DNA from: Cloeon dipterum
Lineage: Eukaryota; Arthropoda; Insecta; Ephemeroptera; Baetidae
DNA length: 64,000 nt
NCBI RefSeq assembly: GCF_949628265.1
Contig: NC_088788.1
Location: 2,294,001 to 2,358,000 of the forward strand
Reading direction: 5' to 3'
Position numbers and translations under genes: made by a program. The notes under the pieces were generated by a model. That model was not told the origin of the DNA. It was given only the letters and a program-made list of their open reading frames with translations, and searched no databases. This document shows, one piece after another, positions 1,507 to 62,488 of the stretch (within the stretch, counting starts at the first letter, position 1; each line of letters begins with the position of its first letter).

Positions 1507-1515
1507 GTTAAAATA
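1507..1515. repeat. Left target-site duplication of the MULE (GTTAAAATA)
   Basis: The 9-mer GTTAAAATA directly abuts the left end of the element and is repeated exactly at 14540-14548 after the right end. MULE insertions typically duplicate 8-11 bp. The empty site would have read CCCCAT-GTTAAAATA-CCTTCGG. Confidence 0.88.
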
Positions 1516-1523
1516 GGAAATAG

Positions 1524-1835
1524 ATATATATACAACAAAGTTGTATATACAACAATGTATATCCTATATATACAACAATGTTGTATACCTACAACAACGG
1601 TATATCCTATATATACAACAATGTTGTATACCTACAACAACGGTATATCCTATATATACAACAATGTTGTATACCTACAACAACGGTATATCCTATATAT
1701 ACAACAATGTTGTATACCTACAACAACGGTATATCCTATATATACAACAATTGTTGTATACCTACAACAACGGTATATCCTATATATACAACAATTGTTG
1801 TATACCTACAACAACGGTATGTCCTATACCTACAA
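1524..1835 (+). repeat. Subterminal 43-bp palindrome-rich tandem array
   Basis: About six copies of a 43-bp unit containing ATATATACAACAATGTTGTA, CCTACAACAACGGTAT and ATCCTATATA. Some copies form the perfect 20-bp palindrome TATACAACAATTGTTGTATA. The mate array at about 14300-14530 has about four copies. Tandem subterminal motifs are where transposases of this class often bind. That role here is inference. Confidence 0.85.
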
Positions 1836-1931
1836 CAATAGCAATCTGGCAACATCGCAGAATGGGCGGCAACGACAAGCACTGAAAAGCCCGTGGACGA
1901 CACCGACTGCCGGCGCCGGCTCACGGTCGTC

Positions 1932-1943
1932 GCCGCCATCTTG
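1932..1943 (+). promoter_or_regulatory. YY1-like motif in the GC-rich arm block, candidate transposon promoter
   Basis: GCCGCCATCTTG lies in a CpG-rich block whose composition is unlike the AT-rich surroundings. The inverse copy is at 14196-14207. This motif is a common core-promoter element placed near transcription starts. It sits upstream of the 174-bp units that carry splice-like sites, so a transposon transcript could begin here. No TATA box is evident at the right distance. The call is inference. Confidence 0.35.
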
Positions 1944-2263
1944 CCAAGCGGAGAGCGGAGCGCGGACCGGAGCGGAACTGTGAAAATTCCGGAAAACGAA
2001 GCCACGAGCACCAGAAAACAGGAAATGCTAGTGGTAAGCGAACAAAGAAAGCGGTCGCCAACTTTGCAAATCACACAGGAAGATTCGCCGTATTGTTCAC
2101 AGGGACAAACGACCTGGGGACGACCCTGCGCGTCCAAGTCTGGACGGTGCCGATTCCCGCGTGGCATGGACACGACCCGAGGAAGGAAGGATTTGGCCTT
2201 GTTGAGGTGAGTTTTAGCAGTGAAATTAGCACTGTGGGCTAATAATAAACCTGCCTTGTCTAG

Positions 2264-3794
2264 GTTGAGCAGCAGGCCCAGCAAATGTCGTCCGCAGTGG
2301 CGTTCAAATGCAAAACATGACACCTGGACGGTGCAGATTTTTGTGCGGTCGAGGAAGGAAGGGTTAGGCCTTGTTGAGGTGAGTATTTTAGCAGTGAAAT
2401 TAGCACTGTGGGCTAATAATAAACCTGCCTTGTCTAGGTTGAGCAGCAGGCCCAGCAAATGTCGTCCGCAGTGGCGACGAAATGCAAAACAGGACACCTG
2501 GACGGTGCCGATTTTTGTTCGGTCGAGGAAGGAAGGGTTAGGCCTTGTTGAGGTGAGTATTTTAGCAGTGAAATTAGCACTGTGGGCTAATAATAAACCT
2601 GCCTTGTCTAGGTTGAGCAGCAGGCCCAGCAAATGTCGTCCGCAGTGGCGACGAAATGCAAAACAGGACACCTGGATGGTGCCGATTTTTGTTCGGTCGA
2701 GGAAGGAAGATTTTTGTGCGGTCGAGGAAGGAAGGGTTAGGCCTTGTTGAGGTGAGTATTTTAGCAGTGAAATTAGCACTGTGGGCTAATAATAAACCTG
2801 CCTTGTCTAGGTTGAGCAGCAGGCCCAGCAAATGTCGTCCGCAGTGGCGTTCAAATGCAAAACATGACACCTGGACGGTGCAGATTTTTGTTCGGTCGAG
2901 GAAGGAAGGGTTAGGCCTTGTTGAGGTGAGTATTTTAGCAGTGAAATTAGCACTGTGGGCTAATAATAAACCTGCCTTGTCTAGGTTGAGCAGCAGGCCC
3001 AGCAAATGTCGTCCGCAGTGGCGTTCAAATGCAAAACATGACACCTGGACGGTGCAGATTTTTGTGCGGTCGAGGAAGGAAGGGTTAGGCCTTGTTGAGG
3101 TGAGTATTTTAGCAGTGAAATTAGCACTGTGGGCTAATAATAAACCTGCCTTGTCTAGGTTGAGCAGCAGGCCCAGCAAATGTCGTCCGCAGTGGCGACG
3201 AAATGCAAAACAGGACACCTGGACGGTGCCGATTTTTGTTCGGTCGAGGAAGGAAGGGTTAGGCCTTGTTGAGGTGAGTATTTTAGCAGTGAAATTAGCA
3301 CTGTGGGCTAATAATAAACCTGCCTTGTCTAGGTTGAGCAGCAGGCCCAGCAAATGTCGTCCGCAGTGGCGTTCAAATGCAAAACATGACACCTGGACGG
3401 TGCAGATTTTTGTGCGGTCGAGGAAGGAAGGGTTAGGCCTTGTTGAGGTGAGTATTTTAGCAGTGAAATTAGCACTGTGGGCTAATAATAAACCTGCCTT
3501 GTCTAGGTTGAGCAGCAGGCCCAGCAAATGTCGTCCGCAGTGGCGTTCAAATGCAAAACAGGACACCTGGATGGTGCCGATTTTTGTTCAGTCGAGGAAG
3601 GAAGGGTTAGGCCTTGTTGAGGTGAGATTTAGCAGTGAAATTAGCACTGTAGGCTAATAATAAACCTGCCTTGTCTAGGTTGAGCAGCAGGCCCAGCAAA
3701 TGTCGTCCGCAGTGGCGACGAAATGCAAAACAGGTCACCTGGACGGTGCCGATTTTTGTTCGGTCGAGGAAGGAAGGGTTAGGTCTTGTTGAGG
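2264..3794 (+). repeat. 174-bp tandem array with splice-like borders, nine units
   Basis: Units begin (GTTGAGCAG) at 2264, 2438, 2612, 2811, 2985, 3159, 3333, 3507 and 3679. Spacing is 174 except for 199 after unit three (an internal 25-bp duplication) and 172 before the last. Each unit is a 115-bp GC-richer block ending TTGTTGAG, followed by 59 bp that begin GTGAGT, contain GGGCTAATAAT and end CCTTGTCTAG. Those 59 bp look like a short intron. Two variants of the 115-bp block occur: TTCAAATG..CATGAC..GTGCAG, and GACGAAATG..CAGGAC..GTGCCG. Since 174 is a multiple of three, long frames stay open on both strands. I regard these as by-products of repetition, not genes. Confidence 0.92.
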
Positions 3795-3829
3795 TGAGTT
3801 TTAACAGTGAAATTAGCACTGGGCTGATT

Positions 3830-5437
3830 TGGATCTGTATTTTGGGCCATTATTTCTCGATTTTCTTTGGTGGAACTTGATTTTCTATTCATAATAATCA
3901 TACATAAACAGATTGCATATAATATGTATGGCGGAGACACAATTCTGGGCCAGTCCACACTTCTGGGCCACTTCCATAAGAAAAGCATTGATTTTATGGA
4001 TTTTATTGTTGTGACCCACGTGATTTTAAATTGAACCAATTGGTTCAAAGTTTTTTGGTTCAAAGGGGGACAAAAATTGAACCAAATCCTTAATGCAATG
4101 ATTTCAAATAAAGAACCAATTGGTTTAATGAATAAATTTTCAAAATTTTAAATATATTTTAAATTTAGATGCAATTTGCACTTTTCGCACCTAAGGATGA
4201 ATAGACTGATTAAGTCTTGTAATTTAATTGGCTGAAAACACATAACTTAATTAGTTCTTACCTGGATTCGAACCTTGTGATTTGTGAGCACATCCTCTAC
4301 CCTCTGCACCACTCGCGTAACGGTATATGTTTTAAAAATTTGACGTATATATATCAAATAGGAAAAAACCGTGGAAGATGCGCCTGCTTTTAGTGACTAA
4401 TCAGCCATTATGTGAGAAAACGTCCTGATTTAACTTATATTCTACTCTCATTGGGCCAGTTGCAACATTAAATATACCTACAAAAACTTATTAATAAAGA
4501 TTTCCGGGGTTATGTACCAATAAAATTTTCAAATTTTTATAAAAGGTTTGTTTTTTGGCATTTGGTTATTTGCAAGAAATTAAAAAATGATTGCACACAC
4601 CATTTGATGTTGGCAAATAATGAGTTAATAAACTGAAAAAAATTGAGAAATTTTTAATTTTGTGGTACTGAAACATATGAAGTTTTTGGTTCTCTGAATG
4701 AAAACAGCAATGTAGCAAAATTATACATTCCACCCCATCAATACTTAAAATGTTATTCTATATTGAAACCTAAAAAATATGAACCAAATTCCCTGTTTTC
4801 TTGTGCATAGTGATTGTTTAATTAATGAAAGGAGTTAAAATTTAATCGGATCATAACATAATTTTTAAGATGTTCATATGGAAAAAATCCAAAGTTTTTA
4901 TTCGTTTTTTCCTAAATATTAACCAAAATATTTACATTATTCTGAGTCAAAAATACATACGAATGCTTGAAGTTTTGATTCTTTGTTGCAAATTATTGAA
5001 CCAATAGATACTCTTAAACAAACTTTGCTTCTATTTTTTAGAAATAAAGAACCAAAACTCTGTTACAGACATGATTTGATTCTTTATTTTAAAAAATTGA
5101 ACCAAAACTTCTGTATGTTGCTTCATTAAAACAAAAAATTGAACCAACTTGGTTCATTGATTTGATTTTGAACCAAAATTGGTTCTATTAATAGGATAAT
5201 TGCATCAATTGGTTCAAAAAAGTGCAATCTTTGAACCAAATGACCAAAATTGAACCAATTGGTTCAATTTAAAATCACGTGGGGACCCATCAACAATGAA
5301 AACAATGCTATTTAAATGGAAGTGGCCCAGAAGTGTGGAATGGCCCAGAATTGTGTCTCCGCCATATGTAAAATATTATCAAAATGCAAACAGAGAATGT
5401 ATACATGCAAATATATGTACCATAACTTTTAGCGCAT
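3830..5437. mobile_element. Nested foldback element A inside the MULE left arm
   Basis: The element splits a 174-bp unit: it reads AGCACTGGGCT on the left and resumes AAACCTGCCTTGTCTAG on the right. Arms at about 3918-4050 and 5245-5370 are inverted copies, sharing GGCGGAGACACAATTCTGGG, CACTTCTGGGCCACTTCCAT and CCACGTGATTTTAAATTGAA. The interior is very AT-rich and carries many GAACCAA / TTGGTTC motifs. I find no coding frame, so it is non-autonomous. The outermost bases are not clear, so the exact ends are approximate. Confidence 0.75.
4258..4330 (-). repeat. tRNA-like segment, likely head of a tRNA-derived SINE
   Basis: On the minus strand there is a perfect internal B box, GGTTCGAATCC (plus-strand 4264-4274). 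About 35 bases upstream is an A-box-like GTGGTGCAGAGGGTAGAG (4295-4312). A loop resembling CTCACAA lies between them. The anticodon stem pairs poorly and I cannot build an acceptor stem, so a working tRNA is unlikely. A SINE head or a tRNA relic carried in foldback A fits better. Confidence 0.5.
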
Positions 5438-5607
5438 TAAAACCTGCCTTGTCTAGGTTGAGCAGCAGGCCCAGCAAATGTCGTCCGCAGTGGCGTTCAA
5501 ATGCAAAACAGGACACCTGGACGGTGCCGATTTTTGTGCGGTCGAGGAAGGAAGGGTTAGGCCTTGTTGAGGTGAGTTTTAGCAGTGAAATTAGCACTGT
5601 GGGCTAA
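5438..5607 (+). repeat. Isolated 174-bp unit, separated from the array by foldback A
   Basis: It begins AAACCTGCCTTGTCTAGG and runs through one full 115-bp block to GAGGTGAGTTTTAGCAG and GGGCTAATAA. It is the displaced continuation of the arm array, so the original left arm reached at least to here before element A inserted. Confidence 0.85.
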
Positions 5608-5985
5608 TAATGCTTCTTTCTACACATACCTCAAATTGACAGTCATCCTTGCAAATGTTTATTCGCCATTCATTTTAGCATGAATCTTATGATCTCCCAA
5701 TCCAAAATATTGGTAAAGGGGGGGTATGTCAGTTTTTTGGAGAAAATATAATTAAATTACAGTTACCGTGAATTCAATTGTACCTAGTTTACTGTAAAAA
5801 TTTTTATTATATTATGGATGATGGGTGCACTGGACGTTGGTTGAATTAGAGGTGGATTTTGGATTGGGTGATCCATTAGATTTATGCTAAAATGAGTGGT
5901 GAGTAAACATTTTTCACGGATGACTGTCAATCACTTGAACCATCAATTTGAGGAATGTGTAGAAAGAAGCAGTGAAATTGGAATT
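5608..5985. mobile_element. Nested foldback element B
   Basis: Arms of about 115-130 bp are inverted copies: 5608-5720 begins TGCTTCTTTCTACACATACC, and the reverse complement of about 5850-5962 reads TGCTTCTTTCTACACATTCC. They share CTCAAATTGA, GACAGTCATCC, CATTTTAGCAT and CCCAATCCAAAAT. There is no coding frame. It abuts the isolated 174-bp unit, and both flanks contain GTGAAATT. Confidence 0.75.
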
Positions 5986-7131
5986 TGCAAAAATTATTCT
6001 GTTCCTGCTGTTACAGCACTTAGGACGAGCTGCGGCTGCTGTTCTGAAGAGCGAGCATTGGCCTTAAACAGAGCTACGACCGCACGAGATTTCGTCCTGT
6101 GACAAGTATTTTTAAGAGCTACGACAGCTCTTAAAAGTTTTTCAGTGTAGCATTACATATTTTGCTATACCTGGAATTTATTGTTACATAAGCAAACCTG
6201 TAATTCAATTCTCTTAAATTTAACGGTACCTACTATGATTTGCATTATTGTTACACAGGCAGTCAAATTTTATAACTTGCATTGGAACCATTATCAATAA
6301 ATTTTATCTCCCGCTGATGAATTCCTGCTTTGAATTTTTCATCACACCCAAGATCTTATACACAGTTTGAACTACCCATAGTCCGAGAAATGGAATATAA
6401 ATACTTATTACTCATTTTTGACCACTTCGATATCTTGACTCTCAGACGTGTTTGTAGAGTACACATAAAAGCTTATCATACAGTTACAAGTGACATCTAA
6501 AGGTTACAAACTAAGTTAACGCCAATAAGCGCGAACCGCTACAGTGCCCCCCCTTTCTGGATTTTCATTGCTGGGGGCCCTGATTGGAAGTCAAAATTTT
6601 GTACCCACTTAATTTTATTAATCCCTCGGTTCGGACCACCCCTTTGTTGGCTGGGGGTCCTGGTTTAGCCAGGAAATTCAGGAGGTAAAGCCGCCAGAGG
6701 TTGTGATTATATCCATTCCCGTATTTAAGATTTCATACGTCAAGATGTATATCGCTTGCACTGTAAATCTTAGCATCATGGAATCGACTGTACATGTAAG
6801 TAGCAGAGAACTCCAATGTTTATGAAATTCATAATAAATGTTCTGGTGTCGATGGGAAAACACAATCAGTGTTTTATTAATACAATTTTTTACAATAACT
6901 TTTTTGTGAATCTGCGGCAGCTAGATTGGCTACAAATACATAAACATCATTCTCCAAACAAAAAGAGGTGACAGCACAGTATTATTATTGCATCTTCACT
7001 TGCAATCAGGGAATGGAACTTTGAGAGTGTAAGAGGGGGAACAGCAGGCAAACAGAACATGTTTCAACACTGCTCAAATTCAATTAGATCTGCAGCTCTG
7101 GGTACTCTTTGCTTGTGCTCCTGCTCTTTAG
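5986..7131. other. Transposon interior upstream of its gene
   Basis: AT-rich DNA with a palindrome TTTTAAGAGCT..AGCTCTTAAAA near 6110-6137. There is also a partly duplicated G-rich phrase (GCTGGGGGCCCTG near 6570, GCTGGGGGTCCTGG near 6650). At 7116-7131 a pyrimidine-rich run ends in CTCTTTAG, a strong splice acceptor 36 bases before the transposase ATG. I see no other gene. Confidence 0.5.
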
Positions 7132-7167
7132 TCTGTATGTGATCTGTGATTCAAGCGGTTTTGTAAA

Positions 7168-10100
7168 ATGGCACAAACACTGTCAATCACAAATGGCAAG
7201 ACCTTCAAAAGTTTTAGTGATCTTTCAGAGGCAATTAAGGCATTGGAACAAGAAACCTTCATTGTGTATACATGCCTAAGCAGCAACTACATAAAAATCT
7301 CTGACAAGGTGGTTGATGCAGCGGCCAGGGCCAAATTGGAGACAAAGAAGAACAAATTGGTCATTAGATCTGCCAAATATGCATGTATCCATTATGGAGA
7401 TCCCGTTGATGGTCGTTCGACAGGGCAGCGCCCCAATCAGAAGTAAATATACATTACATATTTTCCAACATGTGCATTCAGTTATGAGGGATTTTGAGCA
7501 ATTGGAAACATGAGAATAATTTGCACTACACTGTGCCCTTAATTTGAAAATTGTGATTATTTGTAATACATTAATACAAAAACTTCACATATCCTTAATG
7601 CTAAGCACATATTATTCTGATTTTTGTATGCAATACATATTATCCAAATTTTTTCTTTCAATATTGCATATCATTAGCTACATTGTTATAAGGAACAATA
7701 ATTTTTCAGATCCTACAAACTTGGCTGTGGTGCCTATTTCAAGGTGGGCACTCGTAATGAAATGCTATACATCTACGACTGTCACGTGACCACAGACGTA
7801 CATGAAAAGGTGCACAAACCATGTCCGGCTGATTTTGCACAATACCCTAAGCAGCGTAGATTGAACAACACAGAGAAGGAGCGTCTGCAGCAGCTTGACG
7901 ACCTTGGAGTGAATCCAACCAAGATAAGAGAGGTTATCATGAAGGAGACGGGGAAAGCAGTCCTACCCAAGGATCTGGACAATGAGAAGTAATATATCAA
8001 TATAACACATAAAAATCTGGCTACAAAATTTTCTATTGATTATAAAATGGTATACTTTCACATGTAAATATTCTAAAGATGGTTATATGATTAAAATCGA
8101 GTCTCTCAAGTAGTGAACTCTCGATGACAGCACATTTTGATTTCATTAGGTATTATCTTGTCTCCATGCACCTTTAGTTCTCGTTTCAGAGGGTTTGAAT
8201 ATTATTTATGACATTCGCATACCAGCATATTTTTTTGCCAATGGAGATCCACCATCCGGAATCTGAAAAAATAGGAGCTCACAAAGTACACATTTATCAA
8301 CTTGTTATGTTTCACTTATCTGACACCAGGCTTTCTCAATCCTTTAGACCCCAAGTCCTGAACCATATCATGCCAATAGATTGCCTGAAAAAAAATAAAC
8401 AAATTTAGAATTTACTTGAAACAGGTTTATATTCATCTTTTTATCACAGACAAAGGAAGAAGAGGGAAGAAACCGAAAAATATGCAAATTTTGAGCCACA
8501 TGAGAGGGAATTGATGCTTGCAGCAGAAACTATGAGGGATTTGTTTGAAAAGGACTCTGAAGGTATCCAGTGTTTATGAAAATGTCAGCTAAATTGAGCT
8601 TACCATTGCATATTATGTTTGTAATTAGGATCATACACAATCATCACTGGTCCGGAGGGCAACTTCTCATGTCTTTTCATCGCAACCTCAGAGATGAAGA
8701 AGAATTACGCAAAATTTCCAGAGCTGCTCCTGTTTGATTCAACCTACAACAAAAATGCATATCGGTTACCAATCACATGCTTCATGGTGGTCGATGGAAA
8801 TAGAGCAGGGAGAGTGGTTGGTTATAGTGTTTTGGCTGACGAGAGGGCTTCAACAGTGACATCTGCCCTGCAAGCACTGCAAGAAGCACACAAGAATTAC
8901 ACTGGGGAGCTTAAGACTGTCTTTATCGATAAGGACATGTCAGAATTCGCAGCCATTCAAGCTGTTTTCCCACATGCTCAAGTTGACTACTGTCTGTTCC
9001 ATAGCAGCAAGCACTTGCGAAATGAAGCTAGAACAGCAGCACCACCAGAAGTCAAAGAAGAAATTCAGGCCATTGTCGAGAAACTAATGTTCGAAGCACG
9101 AACAGAAGCTGTATACATGGAACTCTACAACAAACTGTGCCAACTGATTCCGGATAGCAAGCAGAAGTTCAGGGCCTACTATGACAAGAATTGGCACAGT
9201 TGCAAAGAAATGTGGACTGCTTTTGGCAGGTCCATGTCAGAGAACTTCGGAATCCGGACGACAAATCATTGTGAATCGCACAATAAAGCCTTATCCATGG
9301 TTCTTAAACGGAATGGATCCCTAGTGTTTACTATCAAAAAGCTCATCATGCTCCAATATGACAAAACCGTAAGCCTTGAATACAAGAAGCACTGCTACAC
9401 AACAAAGGTTAGCACATACAGGCCACAACAGGGAGCAGAGGTCTCGGAGGCACGAAAAGCTCTCAAAGATTATACCGAGTACTGCATCACTCTGCTCGAA
9501 AAGCAAGAAAAATATGTGCCTTTGTGCAAGAGGGAATACTTCACTACTTACAAAACTACAGAGCTAAACTGTCAATGCCCTTTCTATAAGGGCATTAAAT
9601 TACCTTGCTACCACATCATGGCTCTGAGGAAGGAAATTGGGCTTCCCATGATCGATGCTGTGGAAATCCCAATGCGCTGGACCATTCAATACCAAACTTG
9701 TGAGCAGCAGCTGCCTCCTTCTGAAACAAATGATGAGGTATGTGGTACAATATTGAACTTTGGTTTAGTATTTTTAATTAAAATGTATTTCAGAGTCAGC
9801 TAGTGCAAATTCCGAGAAGGGCTACCAAAGCACAGAGCCGAGAACAAAAATACAACAGAGCTCTGGCCATCTGCAAGCAAATTGCTGATTCTGCATCACA
9901 CCTTGGCACAAAGCAATTTGACGATAGTCTATTGAACCTGCAGCAGATTAAGCAATTAATTGACACTGAAGGAGCTTTCTTTGTAGCTGGAAAAAATTGT
10001 AATTTTACATAATAATATGATTTGTACTAGAAATTTACATTAATTCACATTTATAGCTGGCAGAAATGCGAATGTGTTGCGTCCAGTGGAAGACGTAGGA

Positions 10101-12312
10101 GTTTTTGACGTTGAAGAAGTCTGCTCTGTCTCTTGCGAAGATGATGGAAATAATGTTGAGGCACAGGCAAACTATTCTGTGCAAGCTGAGGAGTCACAGG
10201 GTCGGGAAATTGGCTCTGCGGAAGACGGATTGGCGCTGGTTGAAGTGTCAGAAGTTGAATCTGCTGGGCAAGAGGCAGGCAAGGATTTCGAGGAGGATAA
10301 AGATGGCTCGGTGGAAATTGCAGTGGCTCATGAAGAAGAATCTGCAATTGAGGAATTTGGCTCTAGGGGTCAAGACGCTGGCAAGGATTTAGAGAATGAG
10401 AAAGATAGCTCTGGGGAAGTCGAGGTTTATGAGAAGAGCGATGATGTGAAAGAGGCCAAAGCTGGACCACCACTAATTAGCAGCACGCCTAAAAAAGTGA
10501 TAGAAATTGATCTTACAATAGGTAAAAACTCCGTTCCCTAAGAGTATTTTATCCACTAACAATCAATGTTACAAGATGAATCTGATGAAATGATAAATGC
10601 AACAACAAGCGTTACCAAAAGTGAGAAAGCAGAGGTTGATGCTGTTGAACAGGATGATGGTATTTTTAGTTTACAGCAACAATATCTTGTATAATGTTGA
10701 TAAAAACTATCTCCCGTAGCTCTCGATGACGAGGCGCTGAGACAAATTTCACAAATAGAAGACATTGCTCTTTCTCAGAGAGAGAGGCAGGAGCAGAGCA
10801 AACTGAGTGGTACTGAGATGATTGTAAAGTATGAAATTATTAATTTTTCTTTTTTCTGCGTTCAGATGAAATCAGCGAGTATGGTTTACAACAGATAAGC
10901 CAGGCTGAGATTTCAGCTCTCAGCACTGGAATCAATTCTGGCTTGGACAGCAAGCAATCAGAAGGTGGTATGTGTGTAAGACAAATGTAAATTTTTCACC
11001 AAAACAATGTATTCGATTTCAGAGAACAATGCAGGCAGAAATGAGGCAAGTAAGAGCAGAGATATTGCAACTGAGCCTGGATTTGATACAATCAGAATTA
11101 CTTCAGGTACAAAAATCATGATTAATAAATTATGAGCATACTAATTATAACTCACTTCTTCCAGCATCAGAGTTTTTGAGAAACATCACTTCTCAGCAGA
11201 AGATTGGTTTTCCACTAAAACCAAAGGTCCGTGGTCGACCAAAAGGGACAAGTAACGAGCACCGGGACAAGCTGAAGAAGCACGCGCAGAGCAAGAATCC
11301 AGCTGGAAATGATGATGGTATATTGTAAAAAAATTACAATTTGCAATTATATTATGAAGCATATATAATGATCAAATGAGTTACGTTAATGAAATTTGCA
11401 AAATTTCTTAATATTATAGAAAAACTGAAGGAGCTACTCATGGAAAAAACATCTTTTAGTGTGAAACTGATTGAAGAATTTTTCGACAACAACATTGAGG
11501 TGCCTGATGACTTTGTGGCCATGTTTATTGAGAAGCTGGACAAAGAAGAAAAATATCAAGGACTTCAGTCACCTGCACTGGTGCAATTGCAAGTAGACTG
11601 TTACCAAGCTTGTCTTAAAAAAGAATACGTGCAGATTTTGCACACCCTTGCGCATTGGATTACCGTTAGGTTTGATGGAAAGGAATTTTTCTACTACGAT
11701 TCAAAGCGAAATAGGCCAATTGCAGATTCTACAGAAATTCAGTTTGCTCATATCGCCAAAGATTGTGACTTAAATGAGTTGAAAATTAACAAGATGGTCT
11801 GTCAATATCAAAAGAAGGATGCTAACAATTGTGGACTGTTTGCTATTGCAAATGCAACAGAGATTGCTATGTATGGCCATGTTGATCCCAACAAGCATTT
11901 TGTAACAAATTTGATGAAGCGCCATTTGGCCTATTTACTTGTGACTGACAAACTGATTGCTTTCCCTTCGAAGGCAAAGCCTGGTCCCAAGAACACAACT
12001 TCTGTCCGAGAAGTCATTACTGTCCCCCTCTACTGCATTTGCAAAATGCCCCAATCGTTTGACAAACGCACAATGCAGTGTCCTGTTTGTGAAAATTGGC
12101 TACATCCAAGGTGTATTGGACACCCTAGAGCAGAAATTGAGGGTGACCTGAATTTATCATTCAAGGAAATTGCCAACTGGAAATGTGGTCTATGTGGTGA
12201 CAAAAATTTGAGTGCAACAGTCACTATCAGGCAGACGCCAATCAAAGAGTTTGGCCTAAATGACTCAGACAGTGCTAGTTCAACTTGTGAAGATTCGCAA
12301 GTAAATGATTGA
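7168..12312 (+). CDS. MULE transposase fused to AT-hook, ULP1-like protease and PHD finger
   Basis: Twelve exons: 7168-7442, 7710-7988, 8450-8562, 8629-9737, 9794-9998, 10057-10521, 10576-10659, 10720-10809, 10866-10967, 11023-11106, 11165-11317, 11420-12312. They total 3852 bases, 1283 residues, with no internal stop. Residues 1-130 resemble the N-terminal domain of vertebrate ZSWIM1/ZSWIM3. A MULE DDE core follows, with likely catalytic D259 (FDST), D323 (FIDKD) and E438 (NHCESHNK). A SWIM zinc motif CxC-x9-CxH lies at 537-551, and RW..QYQ follows as in ZSWIM3. A long acidic linker then spans residues 680-940. An AT-hook (RGRPKG) is near 959. A C48/ULP1-type protease has H1065 (LAHW), D1080 (YYDS), a Gln near 1115-1117 and C1124 (NNCGLF). 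A C4HC3 PHD finger is at 1192-1245. Family knowledge says the DDE core cuts and joins DNA. The protease and PHD roles (SUMO/ubiquitin processing, chromatin reading) are inference. The start has good context (AAAATGGC). Confidence 0.9.
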
Positions 12313-12423
12313 CATTAGAGAGCAAGTTGTGAACATGTAAAACAATATGAATTTCTGTTCATGTGTGTCAGTTCAATAGGTTCACATTTGATTGTAAACA
12401 ATTATTTATTACAAATACTTGTC

Positions 12424-12429
12424 AATAAA
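12424..12429 (+). terminator. Poly(A) signal of the transposase gene
   Basis: AATAAA about 110 bases after the stop, with a second AATAAA about 16 bases later, both before the right arm. Confidence 0.6.
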
Positions 12430-12943
12430 AGCAAAATTTAATAAAATTTCCATTCATTAACACTCAGCGTTTAATTCTTAAAAATTTAAAAATACTGGTA
12501 GATACTCGCCGCGAACATTAGTTTTCATTCATAAAACAAGCAGATCTACAATTTATTTTAAACAAAATCCTTTTCCAAATAAAATGTGAATTAATTTTTG
12601 ACTATGATGATTAAATGCAAATTCTTAACATCGCAGTTCTACCAGTTACTCTTGTGTCTTTGAAGGTCACACTCTCATTGCCATTCAGTCGCATATTATT
12701 GATAGAAATTATATTCACTTCCATTAATATCGCATATTACGGAAATGTTTTAAAAAATCCTCAATATTTATTAATGGAAACAATGTTAATTAAATTGCAT
12801 TATAAATGCTTCCATATACCAATACTTTTAATTGCTGCTGTCAATGCAACTCTGAAATTTTAATTACCATGGATATCCAATCAAGTCCAAGGAGATTATG
12901 ACAGCTCCCTCCATATCCATGGTTACTTGCACTGAATCTTAAT
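12430..12943. other. Transposon interior before the right arm
   Basis: AT-rich DNA with no gene. A small inverted pair, ACCATGGATAT (about 12867) and ATATCCATGGT (about 12912), lies just before the arm begins. Confidence 0.5.
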
Positions 12944-14539
12944 CGCCACTGCGGACGGCATTCACCTGGCCTGCTGCTCAACCTAGACAAGGCAGGTTTA
13001 TTATTAGCCCACAGTGCTAATTTCACTGCTAAAATACTCACCTCAACAAGGCCTAACCCTTCCTTCCTCGACCGCACAAAAATCTGCACCGTCCAGGTGT
13101 CATGTTTTGCATTTGAACGCCACTGCGGACGACATTTGCTGGGCCTGCTGCTCAACCTAGACAAGGCAGGTTTATTATTAGCCCACAGTGCTAATTTCAC
13201 TGCTAAAATACTCACCTCAACAAGGCCTAACCCTTCCTTCCTCGACCGCACAAAAATCTGCACCGTCCAGGTGTCATGTTTTGCATTTGAACGCCACTGC
13301 GGACGACATTTGCTGGGCCTGCTGCTCAACCTAGACAAGGCAGGTTTATTATTAGCCCACAGTGCTAATTTCACTGCTAAAATACTCACCTCAACAAGGC
13401 CTAACCCTTCCTTCCTCGACCGCACAAAAATCTTCCTTCCTCGACCGAACAAAAATCGGCACCATCCAGGTGTCCTGTTTTGCATTTCGTCGCCACTGCG
13501 GACGACATTTGCTGGGCCTGCTGCTCAACCTAGACAAGGCAGGTTTATTATTAGCCCACAGTGCTAATTTCACTGCTAAAATACTCACCTCAACAAGGCC
13601 TAACCCTTCCTTCCTCGACCGCACAAAAATCTGCACCGTCCAGGTGTCCTGTTTTGCATTTGAACGCCACTGCGGACGACATTTGCTGGGCCTGCTGCTC
13701 AACCTAGACAAGGCAGGTTTATTATTAGCCCACAGTGCTAATTTCACTGCTAAATCTCACCTCAACAAGGCCTAACCCTTCCTTCCTCGACCGAACAAAA
13801 ATCGGCACCGTCCAGGTGTCCTGTTTTGCATTTCGTCGCCACTGCGGACGACATTTGCTGGGCCTGCTGCTCAACCTAGACAAGGCAGGTTTATTATTAG
13901 CCCACAGTGCTAATTTCACTGCTAAAACTCACCTCAACAAGGCCAAATCCTTCCTTCCTCGGGTCGTGTCCATGCCACGCGGGAATCGGCACCGTCCAGA
14001 CTTGGACGCGCAGGGTCGTCCCCAGGTCGTTTGTCCCTGTGAACAATACGGCGAATCTTCCTGTGTGATTTGCAAAGTTGGCGACCGCTTTCTTTGTTCG
14101 CTTACCACTAGCATTTCCTGTTTTCTGGTGCTCGTGGCTTCGTTTTCCGGAATTTTCACAGTTCCGCTCCGGTCCGCGCTCCGCTCTCCGCTTGGCAAGA
14201 TGGCGGCGACGACCGTGAGCCGGCGCCGGCAGTCGGTGTCGTCCACGGGCTTTTCAGTGCTTGTCGTTGCCGCCCATTCTGCGATGTTGCCAGATTGCTA
14301 TTGTTGTAGGTATAGGACATACCGTTGTTGTAGGTATACAACAATTGTTGTATATATAGGATATATACCGTTGTTGTAGGTATACAACAATTGTTGTATA
14401 TATAGGATATACCGTTGTTGTAGGTATACAACATTGTTGTATATATAGGATATACCGTTGTTGTAGGTATACAACATTGTTGTATATATAGGTTATTCAT
14501 TGTTGTATATACAACTTTGTTGTATATATATCTATACCC
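12944..14539 (-). repeat. Right inverted arm of the MULE
   Basis: Reverse-complement copy of the left arm. It has one truncated and about five full 174-bp units (12944-13930), the GC-rich block (about 13930-14300) and about four 43-bp units. The unit with the 25-bp internal duplication is third from the outside in both arms, showing that the arrays correspond despite different copy number (about six here against nine). The outermost unit is the GACGAAATG variant here but the TTCAAATG variant on the left. Confidence 0.9.
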
Positions 14540-14548
14540 GTTAAAATA
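14540..14548. repeat. Right target-site duplication of the MULE (GTTAAAATA)
   Basis: Exact copy of 1507-1515, directly abutting the GGG/CCC tip of the right arm. Confidence 0.88.
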
Positions 14549-14564
14549 CCTTCGGTAAATCACT

Positions 14565-14835
14565 TACCATTCTGCTTCTGGTGAGCGGAAAACCGATTTT
14601 TTGGTGTCAACTTGCAGCTAAAGAGTTGATCTATTAATATATAATCATAGAACAACAAAAAAGATGGTTTCATTGCATGTGAAGGGATACACTAAAATCG
14701 CAGCAAGAATTATTTTGCTCGAAGATTTCTCGACGCTGATTGGCTGCATGCATTCAATTGAAAGTGTATCGCAAATCGCGCGGAGCTACTAAGCGCGTTT
14801 GTGCCAGTCAATCATTAAAATCAAAGTATTCTTGT
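14565..14835. repeat. CCAAT-foldback (MITE-like) copy, decayed
   Basis: It contains GAGCGGAAAACCGATTTT, CTAAAGAGTTGATCT, GCAGCAAGAATT and CGACGCTGATTGGCTG, all hallmarks of the family seen at 20785, 36470, 57075, 59900 and 61590. The second arm is eroded (CCAGTCAATCATT). Confidence 0.6.
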
Positions 14836-15151
14836 TAATTAGGTAGAGTTCCTTGAGATCATTCTTTATTCTAACAGTGCGTGCGTGTACATAGCCGTGT
14901 CCATATTCAAATAAGAACCAAAGAACCTATCTCCTTTTCTAAATCCCCTTCCCTGCTTTGATTGAACTACGCCCACGCCCACCTGCTACTGTTTTGACTT
15001 TTGAGTTGTGGCTGGCTCGCTGGCTGCTGGCTGTCAGGATGGGAGTTTCCCGATCGTAGATTGCTCGATTTTCTTGTTATAAATCGCGAATGAATCATCT
15101 AGGGTGATCTTCTGGACATATTCAAGAGTGACCGCACATTTTTAATTAGAA
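14836..15151 (+). promoter_or_regulatory. Upstream region of Exo84
   Basis: The 316 bases before the Exo84 ATG contain no other gene. No clear TATA box is visible at a useful distance. A C-rich stretch (CCACGCCCACCTGC near 14970) could be a promoter element. The call rests on position alone. Confidence 0.35.
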
Positions 15152-18100
15152 ATGGCAGACATATCGGGCCGGAAAATCAGCGCCCCTGATTTCAATCCAG
15201 ATAAATGTGAGTACACAGTTTTGTTTTGTCAGTTGAAAATAGATCCATCAATTAATAATAATTTATAGACGTGAGGGAGCTATCGCAAAGATGTGTCGGG
15301 AGAATGGAGCTGGTGACCCAGCGTCAGAAAATGCAGAAGCTGGCTGAGGACACGAATGAACAGCTGAAGAAGAACGTCTACGACAACTACGTGCAGTTCA
15401 TCGAAACTTCCAAGGAAATATCCCGTATGTAGACTAAATTAATTTGAGTCCAATTATTTTAATGTGCTCGCAGATGTGGAGAGCGAGATGTACCAGCTGT
15501 CCCATTTTCTCTCGGAGCAGAGGGAGCTTCTGTCCAACTTGCTCGACACCTCGATTGTAGGAAGTCGTGGTACGTTACTAGACAAAGAAAAAATCCCTGA
15601 GGCTGAAGACAGCCGAAACAATGAGGAAGAGCAGAGGAGGAAACTCGCGTCCATCATCGAAAAAGTGGAAGGCTGTGTTGTGAGTGCTGCTTGAATTCTA
15701 GTGTCTTTTCTTTTAAATTACTTTGAGCGAATTGCAGTCTTTGCTGGAGGTGCCTGGCAGAGTTCTTCTCCACGACAGCGACCTGATCGAGCTGGACATC
15801 AACGACAACTCGGCAATTCAGAGATATCACGGATACCTTTTAAATGACAGTGTTGTTTTGGCTTCTTGGATCACAAACAAGTAATAAATTTGTTTATTTT
15901 GTATCAACACTTTTAAAAGATAAATAATTTCAGGAGAGGTCCAGTGCGGTACAAATTCCAAGTGCAGTACCCACTCGAGAGTTTGGCTGTGGTTAACGTT
16001 CGTGATTTGGGAAATGTGAAGCACGCCTTCAAATTCCTCGCTTTTCCCGATACCAGAATCTTCCAGTGCTCAACGAGTGCTCACAAGGTAGGGTTGAAAA
16101 CTAAGTTTTGGTCTGATGTTACGTCCTAAAATTTGCAGAATGAGTGGATGGATGCATTCCACACGGCCAAGAACCCCACCCCGAAAAGTCAGCAAAAACA
16201 AAGAGAGTCTGCGTCTGAAAGACCGGTTTCTATGATTTCTAGAGGCGACTCCACCGAATCAAACAATCGTAAGACTTTATTTGCCTCCTTGGATTTGAAT
16301 TTAAAATTGTGCGTAGCTTTCGAGGATCCTGTACCGGAGCCAACTCCCGACCAGCTGGTTCCGGAGTGGTTGGCTGAGGCTCCGGATGATCTGGACGTCT
16401 TCATTGCCCAGCGGCACTTCGAGGACGCCTACAACTTGATCATCAAGTGCAAGGACGGCTGGGCAGAACTGCCTCCCAGCTCCAAATTGCATCTCATTCA
16501 GTGAGTAACATTTTTGCTTGTTAAAAAATATTCCAAGCCCTTAAAGAGTGAATTTACCCGCCAAATCGTTTGACACTCATACAGATTAGAATCCTGAGGA
16601 TCATATATAGTAAACAAAATTCATAGGTAGTGTAAATATGTAAATTTTGGAGAAAACTGAAAAAACGTCTGAATCGGCCAACAGAGAGAGGGGCGTGTCA
16701 CGCACTTTTCCGCTGTCGTGGCTTAATCTCACTTAAAGACCATCTTTAACGAAGCTTCTGAGCACACCAATCGATTCTTGAGGGTCGAATTAGGTAAAAT
16801 GGATAATTTTACCCTCCAAAAAAGTGCAGCGTGACGTGCGAACTTTTTTCCCGCCAAAACAGTATGAATGCGAGAACTACGCATGCGTCAGAGCTGGTTT
16901 GAGCACTTGCAGAGAGACCGCCTGTACGTCACATCCAGCCAGCAATGACGCATGCGCACTTCTCGCATTCATATTGTTTTGGCGGGAAAAAAGTTCGCAC
17001 GTCACACTGCACTTTTTTAGAGGGTTAAATTATCCACTTTACCTATTTCGACCCTCAAGAATCGATTGGTGTGCTCAGAAACTTCGTCAAAGACTTCAAA
17101 TTTCCTACTTTCGCATAATTCAGGCGGAAGATCGACGCGCGCGTGCGCAACCTGACGGAGGTGTTGATGAAAGAGCTGGAGGTGTCCCCCGAGCGGAGCT
17201 TCCAGGGGGGTCTGCGAGCGGCTCGCAGGGCCGTGCGGCTGCTCAATTTGCTGGGCTGCTCGACGCAGGCGTGCAAACTGTTCCTGGACCTGAGCAGCTC
17301 TGTGATCAAGACGCAGCTGAAGCGGACGATGCGCGAAGGTGTCACCGTGCAGTTCATCACGCAACTCGGCGACATTTTCTTCTCGAACGTCAAGGACGTG
17401 ATGCAGGAGTTCCTCAAGTCGTTCCCCTCCACCTCCAGCTGCCTCTCCTCCTTTGTCGTTTGGGCCGGACTCGAGCTCACCGCCTTTGTCGCCCTGCTCA
17501 ACAAGCACATTTTCCTGCCGCAGTCCTCCCTGGACGCCATTGCAGAGTGCTTCACGTCGATCAGAAAACTTTGCACAGAGGTTTGTTATCGAGGAATCTG
17601 GAAACCTTGAATTATTGTTGTTTTTCAGCTAGGTGAGCTCGGTCTGGACATCGTTTACATGCTGGACGGTCTGCTGAGGTCTCCCCTGACCCGAGCCATC
17701 CAGGACAACACGCGGAAGACGGTGGACTCGATTAGATTGAAAGCGGCCGACGACACTTGGCGCCAAACCAACCTGATGAGCAAGGATGCCAGGGCAAAGT
17801 TTGTGCAGGAGTTTGTCGACCTGGGTCTCGCCAACACATCCTCTTACACCTACGGTAGGGCTATTTTTTATTTATTTCCTACCATTTGTTTACAAGGAAA
17901 CCCGACTTTTTAATTTCTGGGAAAACTATTTAAAAATGGCGCAGATTTTGGGGTCGTTGGCGGTGGCGAAAATCAGGTCATAAAGATGCAGAATTTAAAA
18001 TGTGAATCGATGCTACATTTATCTGGGATTATTTAAAGACCAAATTCGGGCCGATCCGATCAAAATTGCAGGAGAAAATTATTTACCTTTAAAAACGGGA

Positions 18101-19036
18101 TTTTTGCACTTAGGCCATCGAAAAATTGCGATATTTTTGCAAACGCAGCAAAATCGCAGGGTTTTACCAACTCCATCGAACGTGAAGTACTACCGCCAGT
18201 CTGGATACTGATTTTCATATTTTTCAAGCCCATAGAAAAATTAAATTTATTTTTTTACGGTGTTTCGGCTTCGCGCGACGAAATTGATTTTATTTTTGTT
18301 AAAATTCGGCCGTTCATCCTATCGTCAACCACGACCCCTTATCGGACAGGTCTCGTGCGGCTCTTTGACTAGGGGTATCCTATCGACCCTTTTCAGGGTA
18401 CCCCGACCTGAAATCCGCTCCCAAGCTGGTTTTCAATGTTTTTTTTCAGTAATTTCGAGCACATTAAGCGAAACCTGACGACTTTTTTCACCCTTGCCTG
18501 TGAACGACCTTCCTCAGGTCACGAGCAACCTGAGATCAGGCCCCAGAATGTTTTTTGCGCTTTTGCCGGCGTTATATCGCATATATTTGGGTCTTTTGAT
18601 CAATTTCAGCCTCGACGGACTTTTTTTCACTTACATCAGGCTTTAATTATTTTATTTAAATGTGCCCGTGTCAGGTGAAACGTGGGTCTACCTGACGTCC
18701 AACACAATTTCGTTCACCCGTCGGTACGTGCAGTTGGTCGACTCGTCGCTCAGCCTGTGTTTTCCGGAGCTGGAATTTGTGGTACGCAAGTCAATCGAGA
18801 GTGTGCTCAGCGAACAGCTAAAACACGTGCAGGAGAGTTCGGTGATTAGAAGTTACGACCAGGCCACCGTTGAGAAAAACGGCAACTTCCTTGTCGGCGA
18901 GCTGTTGCCGCTTGCGTTGAAGAAGTTCAGCCGAGCGAACGGACACCAGTGCGAGGAACTGTTGCAACTGGCCAAAAAATACGCCAACTTGGCACCAAAG
19001 TCTGTTACGAAATATTCCACTACTGTCTATATTTAA
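15152..19036 (+). CDS. Exo84: Exocyst complex component 8 (Exo84)
   Basis: Nine exons: 15152-15206, 15269-15424, 15474-15679, 15738-15880, 15934-16087, 16139-16500, 17124-17580, 17629-17854, 18675-19036. They total 2121 bases, 706 residues, close to the usual length of about 720. The order is: an N-terminal helical segment conserved in Vps51/Exo84 proteins (YVRELSQRC, QKLAEDTNEQLKKNVY), a PH domain at about 140-248, then the helical Exo84 C-terminal domain from about 317 (PEWLAEAPDDLDVFIAQRHF). Exo84 is a subunit of the exocyst, which tethers secretory vesicles to the plasma membrane; its PH region binds Ral GTPase in mammals. Intron 6 holds a foldback element and intron 8 an interspersed repeat. 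Within exon 6 a stretch of 48 bases (16269-16316) starts GTAAGA, ends GTAG and could be skipped without breaking the frame. Confidence 0.93.
16735..17096. mobile_element. E2F-motif foldback (MITE-like), copy 1, in Exo84 intron 6
   Basis: Two inverted arms share CTGAGCACACCAATCGATTC, AGGGTCGAATTAGGTAAA and CGTGCGAACTTTTTTCCCGC, followed by GCCAAAACA and GCATGCGTC. No coding capacity. Related copies lie at 28200 and 55334. Confidence 0.85.
17900..18670 (+). repeat. Intron-resident interspersed repeat, Exo84 intron 8
   Basis: It shares phrases with introns of GDI and WASHC4: AAAATTCGGCCGTTCATCC, CACGACCCC..ATCGGACA, TTTTCAGGGTACCCCGACCT, ATCCGCTCC and ATTTCGAGCAC. It ends a few bases before the next acceptor. 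No terminal repeats or coding frame seen; class unknown. Confidence 0.65.
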
Positions 19037-42608: not shown

Positions 42609-45600
42609 ATGTTTCAGAAGAACTCAAAAATCGGTAAGCTCAATTCAATTCTGTTGGAAAATTCGCTGATTCGTCTTTGAAGACATGGCAGGGGAGTTGC
42701 AGCTGAAGCGATTCGGTCGGCTCTTGGAGGAATTCTGTCAGCAGAGACAGAACCTGAGCAGCAGCACCTGCGTGGAGTCGCGGTGGGCGCCGGTTGCCCT
42801 GAGCACCGCTCCTTCGGAGCAGGCCGACCTGCTGCACTTGCTGACGTCGGCCTCGAGATGCAGCAGTTTCAACAAGGCGGCGGCCGCCGTGTCGGCGACG
42901 GTGGTGGCCGCCGACCAGGTGCACCGGGAGGCCACCGTCCTGTGCCAGGGCCTCTTGTTCTACGGCGAAGGCCCCATGAGGGACCCTTCGGAGGGCGCCG
43001 CCTACGTCAGCCGCATGCTGGCGCCCCTGCAGACCCTCAGGGTGGTCGTGGCGACGGCGGGCCGCGTGCTGGCCGCCGGCCTCGGCCACCTGGAAGCCCT
43101 GGCCACCCTGACCGAGGCCAAAGGCGGCCTCCTGTTCTCCTCGTGGACGCCCGAGCTGAGTTTGCACCAACTGGTCGACTCGATCGCGCAGGTGCTCTTC
43201 ACCCTGATCACCATTCAGGAGGTCATGTCCAGCTGCACCCTTCTGCAAACGCACTGGACCGTGTTCAAACGCACCCTGAAGGCGGCGGCTCAGGAGGCGG
43301 ACCACCTGAACAATAACAAACTCAACTGTCTGCAAGCCGTCGTGTCCGAACTGGAAAAGAAACTCATCTCCGGAGACGTCTTCAAGTCGAGTCTCAGAAG
43401 GGCCGTCGACGAGGCCAAACCGGGACTGTCGTCCACGACAATCGAGCACCTGATGCGCTACGTCAGGGTGCAAGTGACGGAACTGGACATGGAGGTCGGC
43501 AACCACGAGTGCTGGCTCAAGGCCTCTGCCGTCTACGTCCTGGCCGCACACCTCGGCGCCGCTGCCGACCGGAAGACCTTTAAATTGGTCTGGGAGCCGT
43601 ACAAAAAGGTTGGTAAGCAAGATGATCGGTAAATTAATAAATAAATAATTAAAATAAATAAGAAATTACCAAAATTAGTGGGACACGAATTTAATTAATT
43701 TTATTATCTCGGCTCAAGTGCAAATAAGACAAACTGAATGCCAATTAAAAGCAAATGAAGGGGATTAAAAATCGGCAATTAGGGTCAAGGTCGCTAAAAT
43801 TAGGTCGAATTTTTTAATTTGTGGTTTTTCGGGACCTGAGAAATTAAATTTAAAAAAAATAAACCCGATTTTGAGCAGACGCATTACTATAAACCGATTG
43901 TAAAAATTATTAATTACTGATTTGAGGGTTGGAATTGATAATCCAATCCTCAGGAGGTTTCCGAAGTTGGGTTTTAGTCACTTTTATCCAAAATTAACGT
44001 TCTTGGTGTCATTTCGTACGTTTTCCCCATCATATTTAGGTTATCTCTAGCTATTTAATTAATTTTTAATTATTTAATTCCAGATTTCGGCTGTAAACAT
44101 CATGGGCACAGTTTTGTGGCTTCCCGAGGTATTTTTCTCGGCATACCTTCCGAGCGGACAACAGCTGCTCGACAAGAAAAGCAAAGCCTCGGCGTCCGGA
44201 GGAAGGGAGTCGCAGCTGCAGCAGCGGTCTCAGGCGCTTCCCAAGGACGCACATGTTTACTTTTTCATCGTGAGATTTTCCCCTTCAATCAAAAATCCTA
44301 TAATAATTTAATTTTTCTTCATGCCAAGGTGTGTGACTGGTTGATCCAGTTGGACGCGTGCATGCGAAGAGACACGACGCAGCTCAAGCTGGACGACCTG
44401 CACACCAAGTGCGCCATCCTGCTCCAGGTTTCTACCCTTTTATATTAATCACCCTGAGACGCGATTTGCTAAATAATAATTTGTAACCTAGGGTTTAGAA
44501 TTTGTGCAGAGCATGAGCCAGATGGTGAAGACCTTTTTCAACCTGCACGCACACCTGGGCGTGCCGATCGCCAGGTCTTCCGTGGTCAATTTGTGCAAGC
44601 TAGTCGAGCTGATTAAGCACATCGAAGGTGCCTACCAGGTCAGGTCGATCGCGTTCGCCGAGTCGCTCAACCACCTGATCCAGCACCTCACTTATCAGCT
44701 TCTGCTCATCGTCGCCAGCATGAAGGTTTGATTTTTTTATTTACCGAACTAGCCGAATAATTAATTTAATTGCAGAAAAACCTTCCTGCTGACAACAAAC
44801 GCAACAGTTCAGCGAGGACGGAGGCGTTGGCGGCGCTGCAGGTGATGGAGCTGTGTCTGCAGGGGCCGTGCAGCGCCGAGAGACGCCTGCTGGTGCGGAC
44901 GTCGTTCAGCTGGGCCGCGCAGCTGCGGAGCGTCTCGCTTGAGGAGCTAAATTCCTTCCGCAGCCTGCTGTCCAAGCTGGATGCCATGTGCGAGTTGAGG
45001 GAAAGACTGCGGCACTCGGCCGACTGCTCCTTTCTCTACTGGCACCGTGTTGTCCTGCCCATCCACTTCAGCCGCATGCTCGACAACGCCGCTGACCTCG
45101 CAAGACTCAAAGTACGTTTCAAAATTTGTTTGGGGGCAACTGAGAAATTAGGCAGGGTTAATTTTTGATATGAATTAATTAGAACAAAAAATAAGTCGAA
45201 AAAGTGCGAAAAAAAATTTGTGACACTTGCCAACCGTGGTTTTTGGGGCCAGGCGGGGCCCCAATGGCTGAACGGCGCCGATTTTGGTACCAATCGATGC
45301 CCCTCGGTAGGACGCGTCCGTCTATGTGCGGTTTTCCAAAATCGGACCATTTTTAGAATTTTGACGAATTTTTTTCGGCCGATTTTCCGAAAGAGTTGAA
45401 ATTTTCAAAACAAATTTCCCTGATATGCCGCCTAGCCATCTCTGCTAGGCATTAATTCAAGAACATTTTGTTAGATTTTGATCAACTTCAATAGAGCCGT
45501 AGATTTTATTTTTTACAGAAGGGGAATTAAGCGTTTTTTCCCCCGACATCTTCCGACTTCCGCTTGCTTTATCTCTGGTCCCGGGCAAAAATTAAAAACT

Positions 45601-49759: not shown

Positions 49760-62488
<12,729 letters not shown>

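Follow-up and report, generated by a model that had tools for sequence, protein, structure and literature searches.

A Mutator-type transposon of Cloeon dipterum with a predicted transposase that carries C48-like and PHD domains

Described systems and the Cloeon element

Transposons that carry an Ulp1 domain have been described from several lineages. According to a paper of 2010 (PMC2836005), Ulp1 occurs in Mutators of hydra, lancelet and plants, and the legend of its Figure 1e names an alignment in which the Ulp1 and PHD domains of a yeast protein stand beside those from transposases of the Ginger1 and Mutator types. Here, we analyze a stretch of 64,000 nucleotides from the mayfly Cloeon dipterum (contig NC_088788.1, positions 2,294,001 to 2,358,000; in the following, the window). 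The gene at 7168-12312 of the window, predicted to encode a transposase with added protease-like and PHD domains, sits inside what its sequence marks as a complete, very recently mobile Mutator-type DNA transposon of an animal genome. Because PMC2836005 already reports Ulp1 in animal Mutators and names Ulp1 and PHD domains of Mutator transposases in this legend, the combination is not new in kind; the novelty seen in it by the original prediction, which was made from the window's sequence, is curtailed by the animal Mutators with Ulp1 and by Ginger1-9_HM, both published there.

The Mutator (MuDR) elements of hydra and lancelet in the Repbase Reports cited in PMC2836005 encode Ulp1, as the window element may do, and are compared here by description only; MuDR-6_HM is described with an ovarian-tumour domain (PMC6446971). 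According to PMC2836005, Ginger1-9_HM of hydra encodes, as is predicted for the window element, a single transposase with C-terminal Ulp1 and PHD and with introns. In contrast, its core is of the Gypsy-integrase type, its target site duplications (TSDs) comprise 4 bp and its terminal inverted repeats (TIRs) 120 bp. With 9-bp TSDs, the core of a Mutator-like element (MULE) and TIRs of kilobase length, the window element has neither the CCGG-type 4-bp TSD nor the Gypsy-type integrase core of Ginger1. Muta1 of Aedes aegypti (PMC5225508) is likewise an animal MULE with TSDs of 8-9 bp, a palindromic tip motif, subterminal tandem repeats in its TIRs and near-identical copies, but it is 3.2 kb long and its TIRs measure 145 bp; no mention of a protease or PHD in it was met, though no search aimed at them was made. 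Plant VANDAL/Kaonashi (KIU) MULEs also carry an Ulp1 domain; in Kaonashi, however, Ulp1 is one of several genes of non-TIR MULEs, and its function is stated there to be unknown (PMC13317346). The main text of a paper on arthropod MULEs (PMC13359780) contains no word starting with Ulp, PHD, protease or peptidase.

Four features are possibly new, no description of them having been found in the literature searched, which excludes Repbase reports and subscription papers: a complete element with kilobase-long TIRs and paired arrays, the full domain set in one protein, three such families in one genome, and one family without the protease residues.

Copies, ends and related families

The genome searched comprises 190 Mb in 10 contigs. 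Besides the window copy, it contains four further full copies, c34 (13,681 bp), c35 (14,482 bp), c18 (14,658 bp) and c23 (17,093 bp), with the targets AACCAAAAC, TTCAATCAA, AACAAAAAA and TTATAAATA, respectively. Perfect and mutually different 9-bp TSDs flank all seven complete copies examined, five of the window family and two of a second family named L024/L025. At the sequence level, the element is thus seen to move as a unit that creates 9-bp target duplications. Within a core of 6,386 bp, c34, c35, c18 and c23 differ from the window copy by 3, 8, 9 and 6 substitutions (identity 99.86-99.95%), and the exonic differences among the copies amount to four sites, namely E493V, S998P, Y1191N and a silent one. 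A TIR probe of the genome gave at least 10 arms, all within the five full elements, and no solitary or shortened element was among the matches listed; repeat counts from such probes are lower bounds. We have hardly any doubt that the gene encodes the composite transposase of a recently active MULE, and most likely it is a single gene that belongs to an autonomous MULE. Taken together, the observations are very probably explained by a complete MULE, apparently autonomous and mobile until very recently, whose one gene is predicted to make a 1,283-residue transposase with added C-terminal domains. The transposon, its TIRs and TSDs and the sister copies had been overlooked in the first, sequence-only reading.

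The tips of the window element are GGAAATAGATATATATACAAC and GGGTATAGATATATATACAAC (coordinates of all features are listed in Table 1). Its TIRs are long, as for MULEs, with about 1.6 kb in the window copy and about 4.2 kb in c23. The subterminal segment of 1.5 kb lies 5' of the gene in the window copy and c18, 3' of it in c34 and c35, and on both sides in c23; moreover, the two tip types exchange sides relative to the gene between the window copy, c34 and c35 on the one hand and c18 and c23 on the other. Because the arms differ among copies and the tip types change sides, recombination of the two inverted arms with each other offers the simplest explanation; it would flip the interior or trade it unequally. 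A gene-bearing interior flipped with respect to the two tip types was observed in some copies of both the window and the L024/L025 family. One tip in each of two families contains a short palindrome with a loop of 3 nt; folded as single-stranded DNA, the stems of 10 and 9 bp reached z values of -2.7 and -3.9. A sequence likeness between the 43-bp units of the window family and the 44-bp units of the L024 family was looked for and not found.

The families compared are the window family (five copies), L024/L025, and L023 with its near relative L026. The two families besides that of the window share its fused order and are about 30-43% identical to it over the main domains. L024 on contig C2 and L025 on contig C4 are 99.8% alike, carry the perfect 9-bp duplications ATTTTAGTT and TTTTTGTTT and have TIRs of 2.5 kb with 44-bp and 173-bp arrays. 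Their order of N domain, core, SWIM, AT-hook, protease and PHD is that of the window gene, with 29-43% identity by block. Since the TIR extends into the last coding exon, the left arm of L024 contains a PHD fragment; one L024 search stretch reaches a stop at an apparent intron. Core, SWIM, AT-hook and PHD are all retained at the third locus, L023. No N domain was detected there, and in its protease region the D is replaced by N and Q and C are lost. No TIRs were found in the 10 kb of DNA available around L023, nor were the ends of L026, a decayed relative that is 89% alike over 1.4 kb, covers the core only and contains stops. The L023 lineage may have kept the transposase frame without the protease residues, or it may be dying. 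The protease-PHD exon has 10 matches in the genome. Eight of them belong to MULE loci with the same domain order, and the remaining two are PHD-only copies in the left TIR of the L024 family.

Table 1. Positions in the window of the element and of its predicted gene
Feature	Position	Strand	Details
Complete MULE transposon, 13,024 bp	1516..14539	+	tips GGAAATAGATATATATACAACAAAG / GGGTATAGATATATATACAACAAAG (inverted), TSD on both sides, four more full copies
TSD GTTAAAATA, left	1507..1515	.	identical to the 9 bases at 14540-14548
TSD GTTAAAATA, right	14540..14548	.	matches the left 9 bases
Left TIR (aligned stretch)	1516..3198	+	about 1.6 kb pairing with 12943-14539
Right TIR	12943..14539	-	inner 174-bp array 12944-13961, outer 43-bp array 14300-14530
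Outer 43-bp tandem array, left arm	1525..1839	+	Tandem Repeats Finder (TRF): 7.3 copies, 96% matches
Inner 174-bp tandem array, left arm	2178..3821	+	9.3 copies; extra unit at 5440-5611
Subterminal 1.5-kb segment	3900..5400	+	comparison of five copies
Exon 1: start codon, N-terminal ZSWIM3/FAR1-type domain, part 1	7168..7442	+	profile below cut-off here, over it in L024
Exon 2: N domain, part 2	7710..7988	+	same acceptor position in L024 by eye
Exon 3	8450..8562	+	spliced frame
Exon 4: RNaseH-like MULE DDE core (D259, D323, E438), SWIM finger (aa 528-555)	8629..9737	+	Pfam, alignment
Exon 5: conserved segment after SWIM	9794..9998	+	33% identical in L023
Exons 6-11 (10057-10521, 10576-10659, 10720-10809, 10866-10967, 11023-11106, 11165-11317): acidic linker, AT-hook	10057..11317	+	
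Exon 12: CE/C48-like protease domain (H1065, D1080, Q1117, C1124), C4HC3 PHD from about aa 1191, stop	11420..12312	+	
Two AATAAA hexamers	12424..12445	+	about 110-130 nt past the stop codon

Tandem arrays, which were found with TRF, with units of 174 bp (window), 173 bp (L024/L025), 178 bp (L023) and 175 bp (locus L055, reverse complement 5922-8684) lie in or beside four transposase-protease loci. No sequence likeness was seen in any of the six pairs of these units, and in 102,910 bp of background from the flanks TRF gave no array of this period of about 175 bp; the period might stem from nucleosome spacing. L023 also has 319- and 52-bp rows. Beyond the inner arrays, a stretch of 115 bp is 74% alike between L023 and L024 (reverse complement 9220-9334 and 9434-9547), which otherwise have no long DNA match in their subterminal parts. 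The 175-bp array stands beside a second, different transposase-like and Ulp1 fusion, L052/L055 (C2:36611099-36613399 and around): an open frame of 867 residues, found as one copy in the genome, with DDE-like motifs recognized by eye, no Pfam match in its N part (711 residues scanned) and a clear C-terminal Peptidase_C48 domain (4e-10).

As to the insertion sites, four of the five copies of the window family lie on contig C3 (about one fifth of the genome), which would fit local hopping or a chromosome effect, and the seven TSDs are AT-rich (G or C at 9 of 63 bases; with 43% assumed, the binomial P is about 1e-6). The window copy is inserted 5' of Exo84/EXOC8, at a distance of about 0.6 kb from what is probably its first coding exon (Exo84_C matches at 16130 and 17119; region 14540-19033). 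Elsewhere in the window are host genes for a succinate dehydrogenase cytochrome subunit (35564), Rab GDI (37562), a WASH complex subunit (42670-48491) and a MAGI-like protein with guanylate kinase and WW domains (54185-55307).

The predicted protein and its rival explanations

The gene had been proposed as a single continuous frame with eleven introns, and its coordinates proved exact: between the ATG at 7168 and the stop ending at 12312, 12 exons and 11 GT-AG introns are predicted, which yield 3,852 nt and 1,283 residues without internal stop. Exon borders were picked with the reading frame in view (the end of exon 9 is ambiguous, 10964 or 10967); for this reason, an open frame does not by itself prove the gene independently, and better evidence comes from two diverged families that share its domain order. 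The catalytic triad D259, D323 and E438 lies at the positions that had been foreseen and is invariant in the three families aligned. For the spliced protein, the best Pfam family is ZSWIM1-3_RNaseH-like (PF21056; 2.5e-26, 92.6 bits, cut-off 27.2), which supports a nearness to the ZSWIM1/3 RNaseH domain; the original prediction's idea of a place close to the ancestry of vertebrate ZSWIM1/3 is more tentative. MULE (PF10551) is also above its cut-off of 27.6 (5.8e-16, 59.2 bits). The SWIM finger and the PHD, both postulated from the start, were recovered with scores near their cut-offs: SWIM reached 19.4 bits in the spliced protein and 21.1 in the exon alone (cut-off 19.6), and the PHD 20.2 and 22.7 bits (cut-off 24), so that both are under threshold in the spliced window protein. 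In L024 (31.6 bits) and in L023, the PHD is above the Pfam cut-off, and its C4HC3 ligands are kept in all three families. The ZSWIM3_N profile scored 19.8-21 bits in the window protein, below the cut-off of 27.8, and 36.0 bits, above it, in L024. The linker (residues 676-985) consists to 23% of D and E and contains the expected AT-hook, GRPKG at residue 959, whose GRPK recurs in open frames of all three families. A PDB profile search with the MULE core gave no match at E up to 1, PADLOC gave no match, and no relatives were confirmed in the viral contigs scanned. In the PDB, the closest relatives of the window PHD are the PHDs of PHF2, BPTF and PHF8, which are readers of methylated H3K4; those of PHF2 and BPTF carry an aromatic cage.

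In the C-terminal region, the motifs AHW (H1065), YYDS (D1080), YQ (Q1117) and NNCG (C1124) provide the residues of the ULP1-like protease that had been claimed. The order H-D-Q-C is found in both the window and the L024 family, which are mutually 32% identical in this region, and it is in register with CE proteases. In a profile-profile comparison of window plus L024 with the Ulp1 domains of the genome's SENP8-like protein and of L052, the four catalytic residues were aligned in register with P 1.5e-4 and a score of 34.5, where 200 column shuffles reached 21.3 at most. Below threshold, Pfam matched the protease region to ElaD/SseL C-terminal (0.0024) and to Josephin (0.0036), and NCBIfam matched it to ElaD/SseL (0.04); a PDB sequence search gave a weak match to ULP_PROTEASE 7fiu (0.033). 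Such weak matches alone decide nothing, because equally weak, unrelated ones occur beside them: MHC_II_alpha (0.024-0.029) for the window region, and a 5'-3' exonuclease (0.034) and ribonuclease A (0.014) for the L024 segment.

Several observations speak against a composite transposase with an active protease and an H3-reading PHD. The exon structure is a prediction from sequence alone. The window PHD is without part of the PHF2/BPTF aromatic cage, and copy c18 has Asn in place of Tyr1191. Peptidase_C48 (PF02902) has no match in the spliced protein or in the protease region, and none of the nine places listed by a PF02902 search of the genome is the window's protease-PHD exon. A PDB profile search with the protease region placed designed helical repeats on top (E 5e-7), with SENP8 (0.74), ataxin-3 and ULP_PROTEASE at E 0.6-0.8, and the L024 segment gave no protease match in Pfam, NCBIfam or the PDB. 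The profile-profile match rests mainly on the SENP8-like protein, which alone gave P values of 0.002-0.003, compared with 0.07-0.15 for L052 alone. Single-sequence structure models had mean predicted local distance difference test values of 32.9 (protease region) and 40.2, too poor for a fold search. The protease may moreover be dispensable, because L023 keeps transposase and PHD without the protease residues; note that L023 is a locus without detected TIRs in its 10 kb, whose only near relative is decayed. Finally, generic SUMO-interacting motifs in the linker are as frequent as expected by chance (one seen, 0.94 expected, with at least three acidic neighbors).

These motifs were dismissed also in the version with at least four acidic neighbors (0.34 expected, attained in 27.5% of shuffles). 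One stretch at residue 808 of the linker, VIEIDLTIDESDE, looks like the PIAS-type motif. A stricter pattern of the IDLT type, which was picked after the fact, turned up in 0.45% of shuffles; pieces of the L024 and L023 linkers that were tried had no match, and a PDB search with the VIEIDLTIDESDE peptide found nothing.

On balance, the region likely has a true CE-clan peptidase fold, a rating that we lowered slightly because unrelated matches of like weakness occur. The domain appears only distantly C48/CE-like, the register of its motifs and the weak matches being its support. Of the profile checks that had been suggested, the MULE fold was thus recovered and C48 was not; the statement that all catalytic residues are intact holds for the window copy and fails for L023. 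The strongest competitor is that the region serves as a structural or protein-binding domain, i. e. a pseudo-enzyme or a binder of ubiquitin-like proteins, and not as an active peptidase. This would suit scores that stay under every family cut-off and the retention of the PHD in L023 despite the loss of D, Q and C; we nevertheless consider it unlikely, given the ordered H-D-Q-C in two families of 32% identity and the register with the host SENP8-like protein.

Somewhat less probable still is that the element belongs to Rehavkus, a MULE outgroup, and not to the canonical MULEs. The 9-bp TSD, the PHD finger and the minisatellites are all present, as tabulated for Rehavkus in PMC6446971. However, the TIRs of 1.6-4.2 kb exceed the 26-400 bp of that table, arrays occupy both arms, SWIM finger and protease are not listed there for Rehavkus, and the matches to the MULE and ZSWIM1-3 profiles are strong.

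A further alternative, which we judge improbable, is that the transposon contains two separate genes, one for a transposase in exons 1-4 or 1-5 and another for protease and PHD in exon 12 plus some upstream exons. This layout would resemble multi-gene plant MULEs, and the Kaonashi Ulp1 gene is indeed one of three coding genes in its group (PMC13317346). Moreover, the frame of exon 4 runs open to a stop at 9801-9803, so that retention of intron 4 gives the transposase alone, and the stretch from exon 1 to exon 12 contains six A(A/T)TAAA hexamers (8090, 8394, 9282, 9594, 9777, 11124). Against it, every exon phase can be joined into the single frame of 1,283 residues, L024 and L023 keep the same order, and by eye introns 1 and 11 have the same acceptor positions in L024. 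Relative to L024 and L023, identity is 0.50-0.69 at codon positions 1 and 2 and 0.32-0.37 at third positions, which are near saturation; for the protease-PHD part and the core, the values are 0.53-0.59 and 0.52-0.69, respectively, at positions 1 and 2, against 0.32-0.36 at third positions of either part. As the protease-PHD part behaves like the core in this respect, constraint seems to act over the whole protein, which argues for one gene. The existence of two separate genes, named by the original prediction as its own refutation, is made unlikely by this pattern and by the fused order in three families. Within the one-gene reading, a retained intron 4 could give a transposase without the added domains as a second product.

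Vertebrate ZSWIM1 and ZSWIM3 share with the window protein the RNaseH-like core (PF21056), the SWIM finger and apparently the type of N domain; to our knowledge, they are host genes without TIRs, TSDs or a protease-PHD tail. The top Pfam family and the many introns might point to a domesticated host gene of this kind, an explanation with next to no probability, as TIRs and TSDs flank the gene, five near-identical copies are dispersed, and the TSDs refute it for the window copy (not for L023).

Possible roles of the added domains

For the composite transposase of a mobile MULE, we propose the following mechanism. The N-terminal zinc domain would bind the palindromic tips and the tandem arrays of the TIRs, where many transposases may gather; the DDE core would cut the ends, as in other MULEs, and join these to target sites that are staggered and AT-rich. 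The complex would be tethered to host chromatin by its AT-hook and its PHD, the latter holding H3. Silencing or repair proteins in the vicinity might then lose SUMO (or ubiquitin/NEDD8) to the protease, an effect that would leave the ends of the element open or aid repair after excision. SUMO, rather than ubiquitin or NEDD8, as the substrate is a guess, since the C48 profile does not recognize the domain. Like the original prediction, we infer a transposase that may read chromatin and either edit SUMO marks or evade them. Local deSUMOylation is a plausible means of anti-silencing; as the main role of the protease, such anti-silencing is a possibility well short of even odds, and help with repair after excision is a slightly more tentative one.

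Ulp1 and ovarian-tumour domains on transposons have been noted for years, and repair roles were suggested (references in PMC2836005); that paper itself proposes a repair role for transposon-borne Ulp1. No tested role of these domains was found in the literature covered. The nearest model for an action on chromatin may, by analogy, be the KIU-type plant elements with their Ulp1 domain and their escape from silencing (PMC13317346); according to this source, KIU-carrying elements counter the silencing of related elements via motifs in non-coding parts. A more far-reaching idea, which we hold to be doubtful, is that a living animal lineage has fused its transposase to a chromatin toolkit of binding to arrays of about 175 bp, H3 reader and SUMO/ubiquitin-like protease. 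This would be a one-polypeptide counterpart of the plant KIU/VANC anti-silencing system, with an array period set by nucleosome spacing; the protease would remove silencing marks where the arrays concentrate the protein.

The element lends itself well to testing: the ends of its five near-identical copies are known, a second family has its residues intact, and a third keeps transposase and PHD with its protease residues gone. A comparison of silencing, SUMO occupancy and mobility across the three families would indicate what role a protease plays for a transposon.

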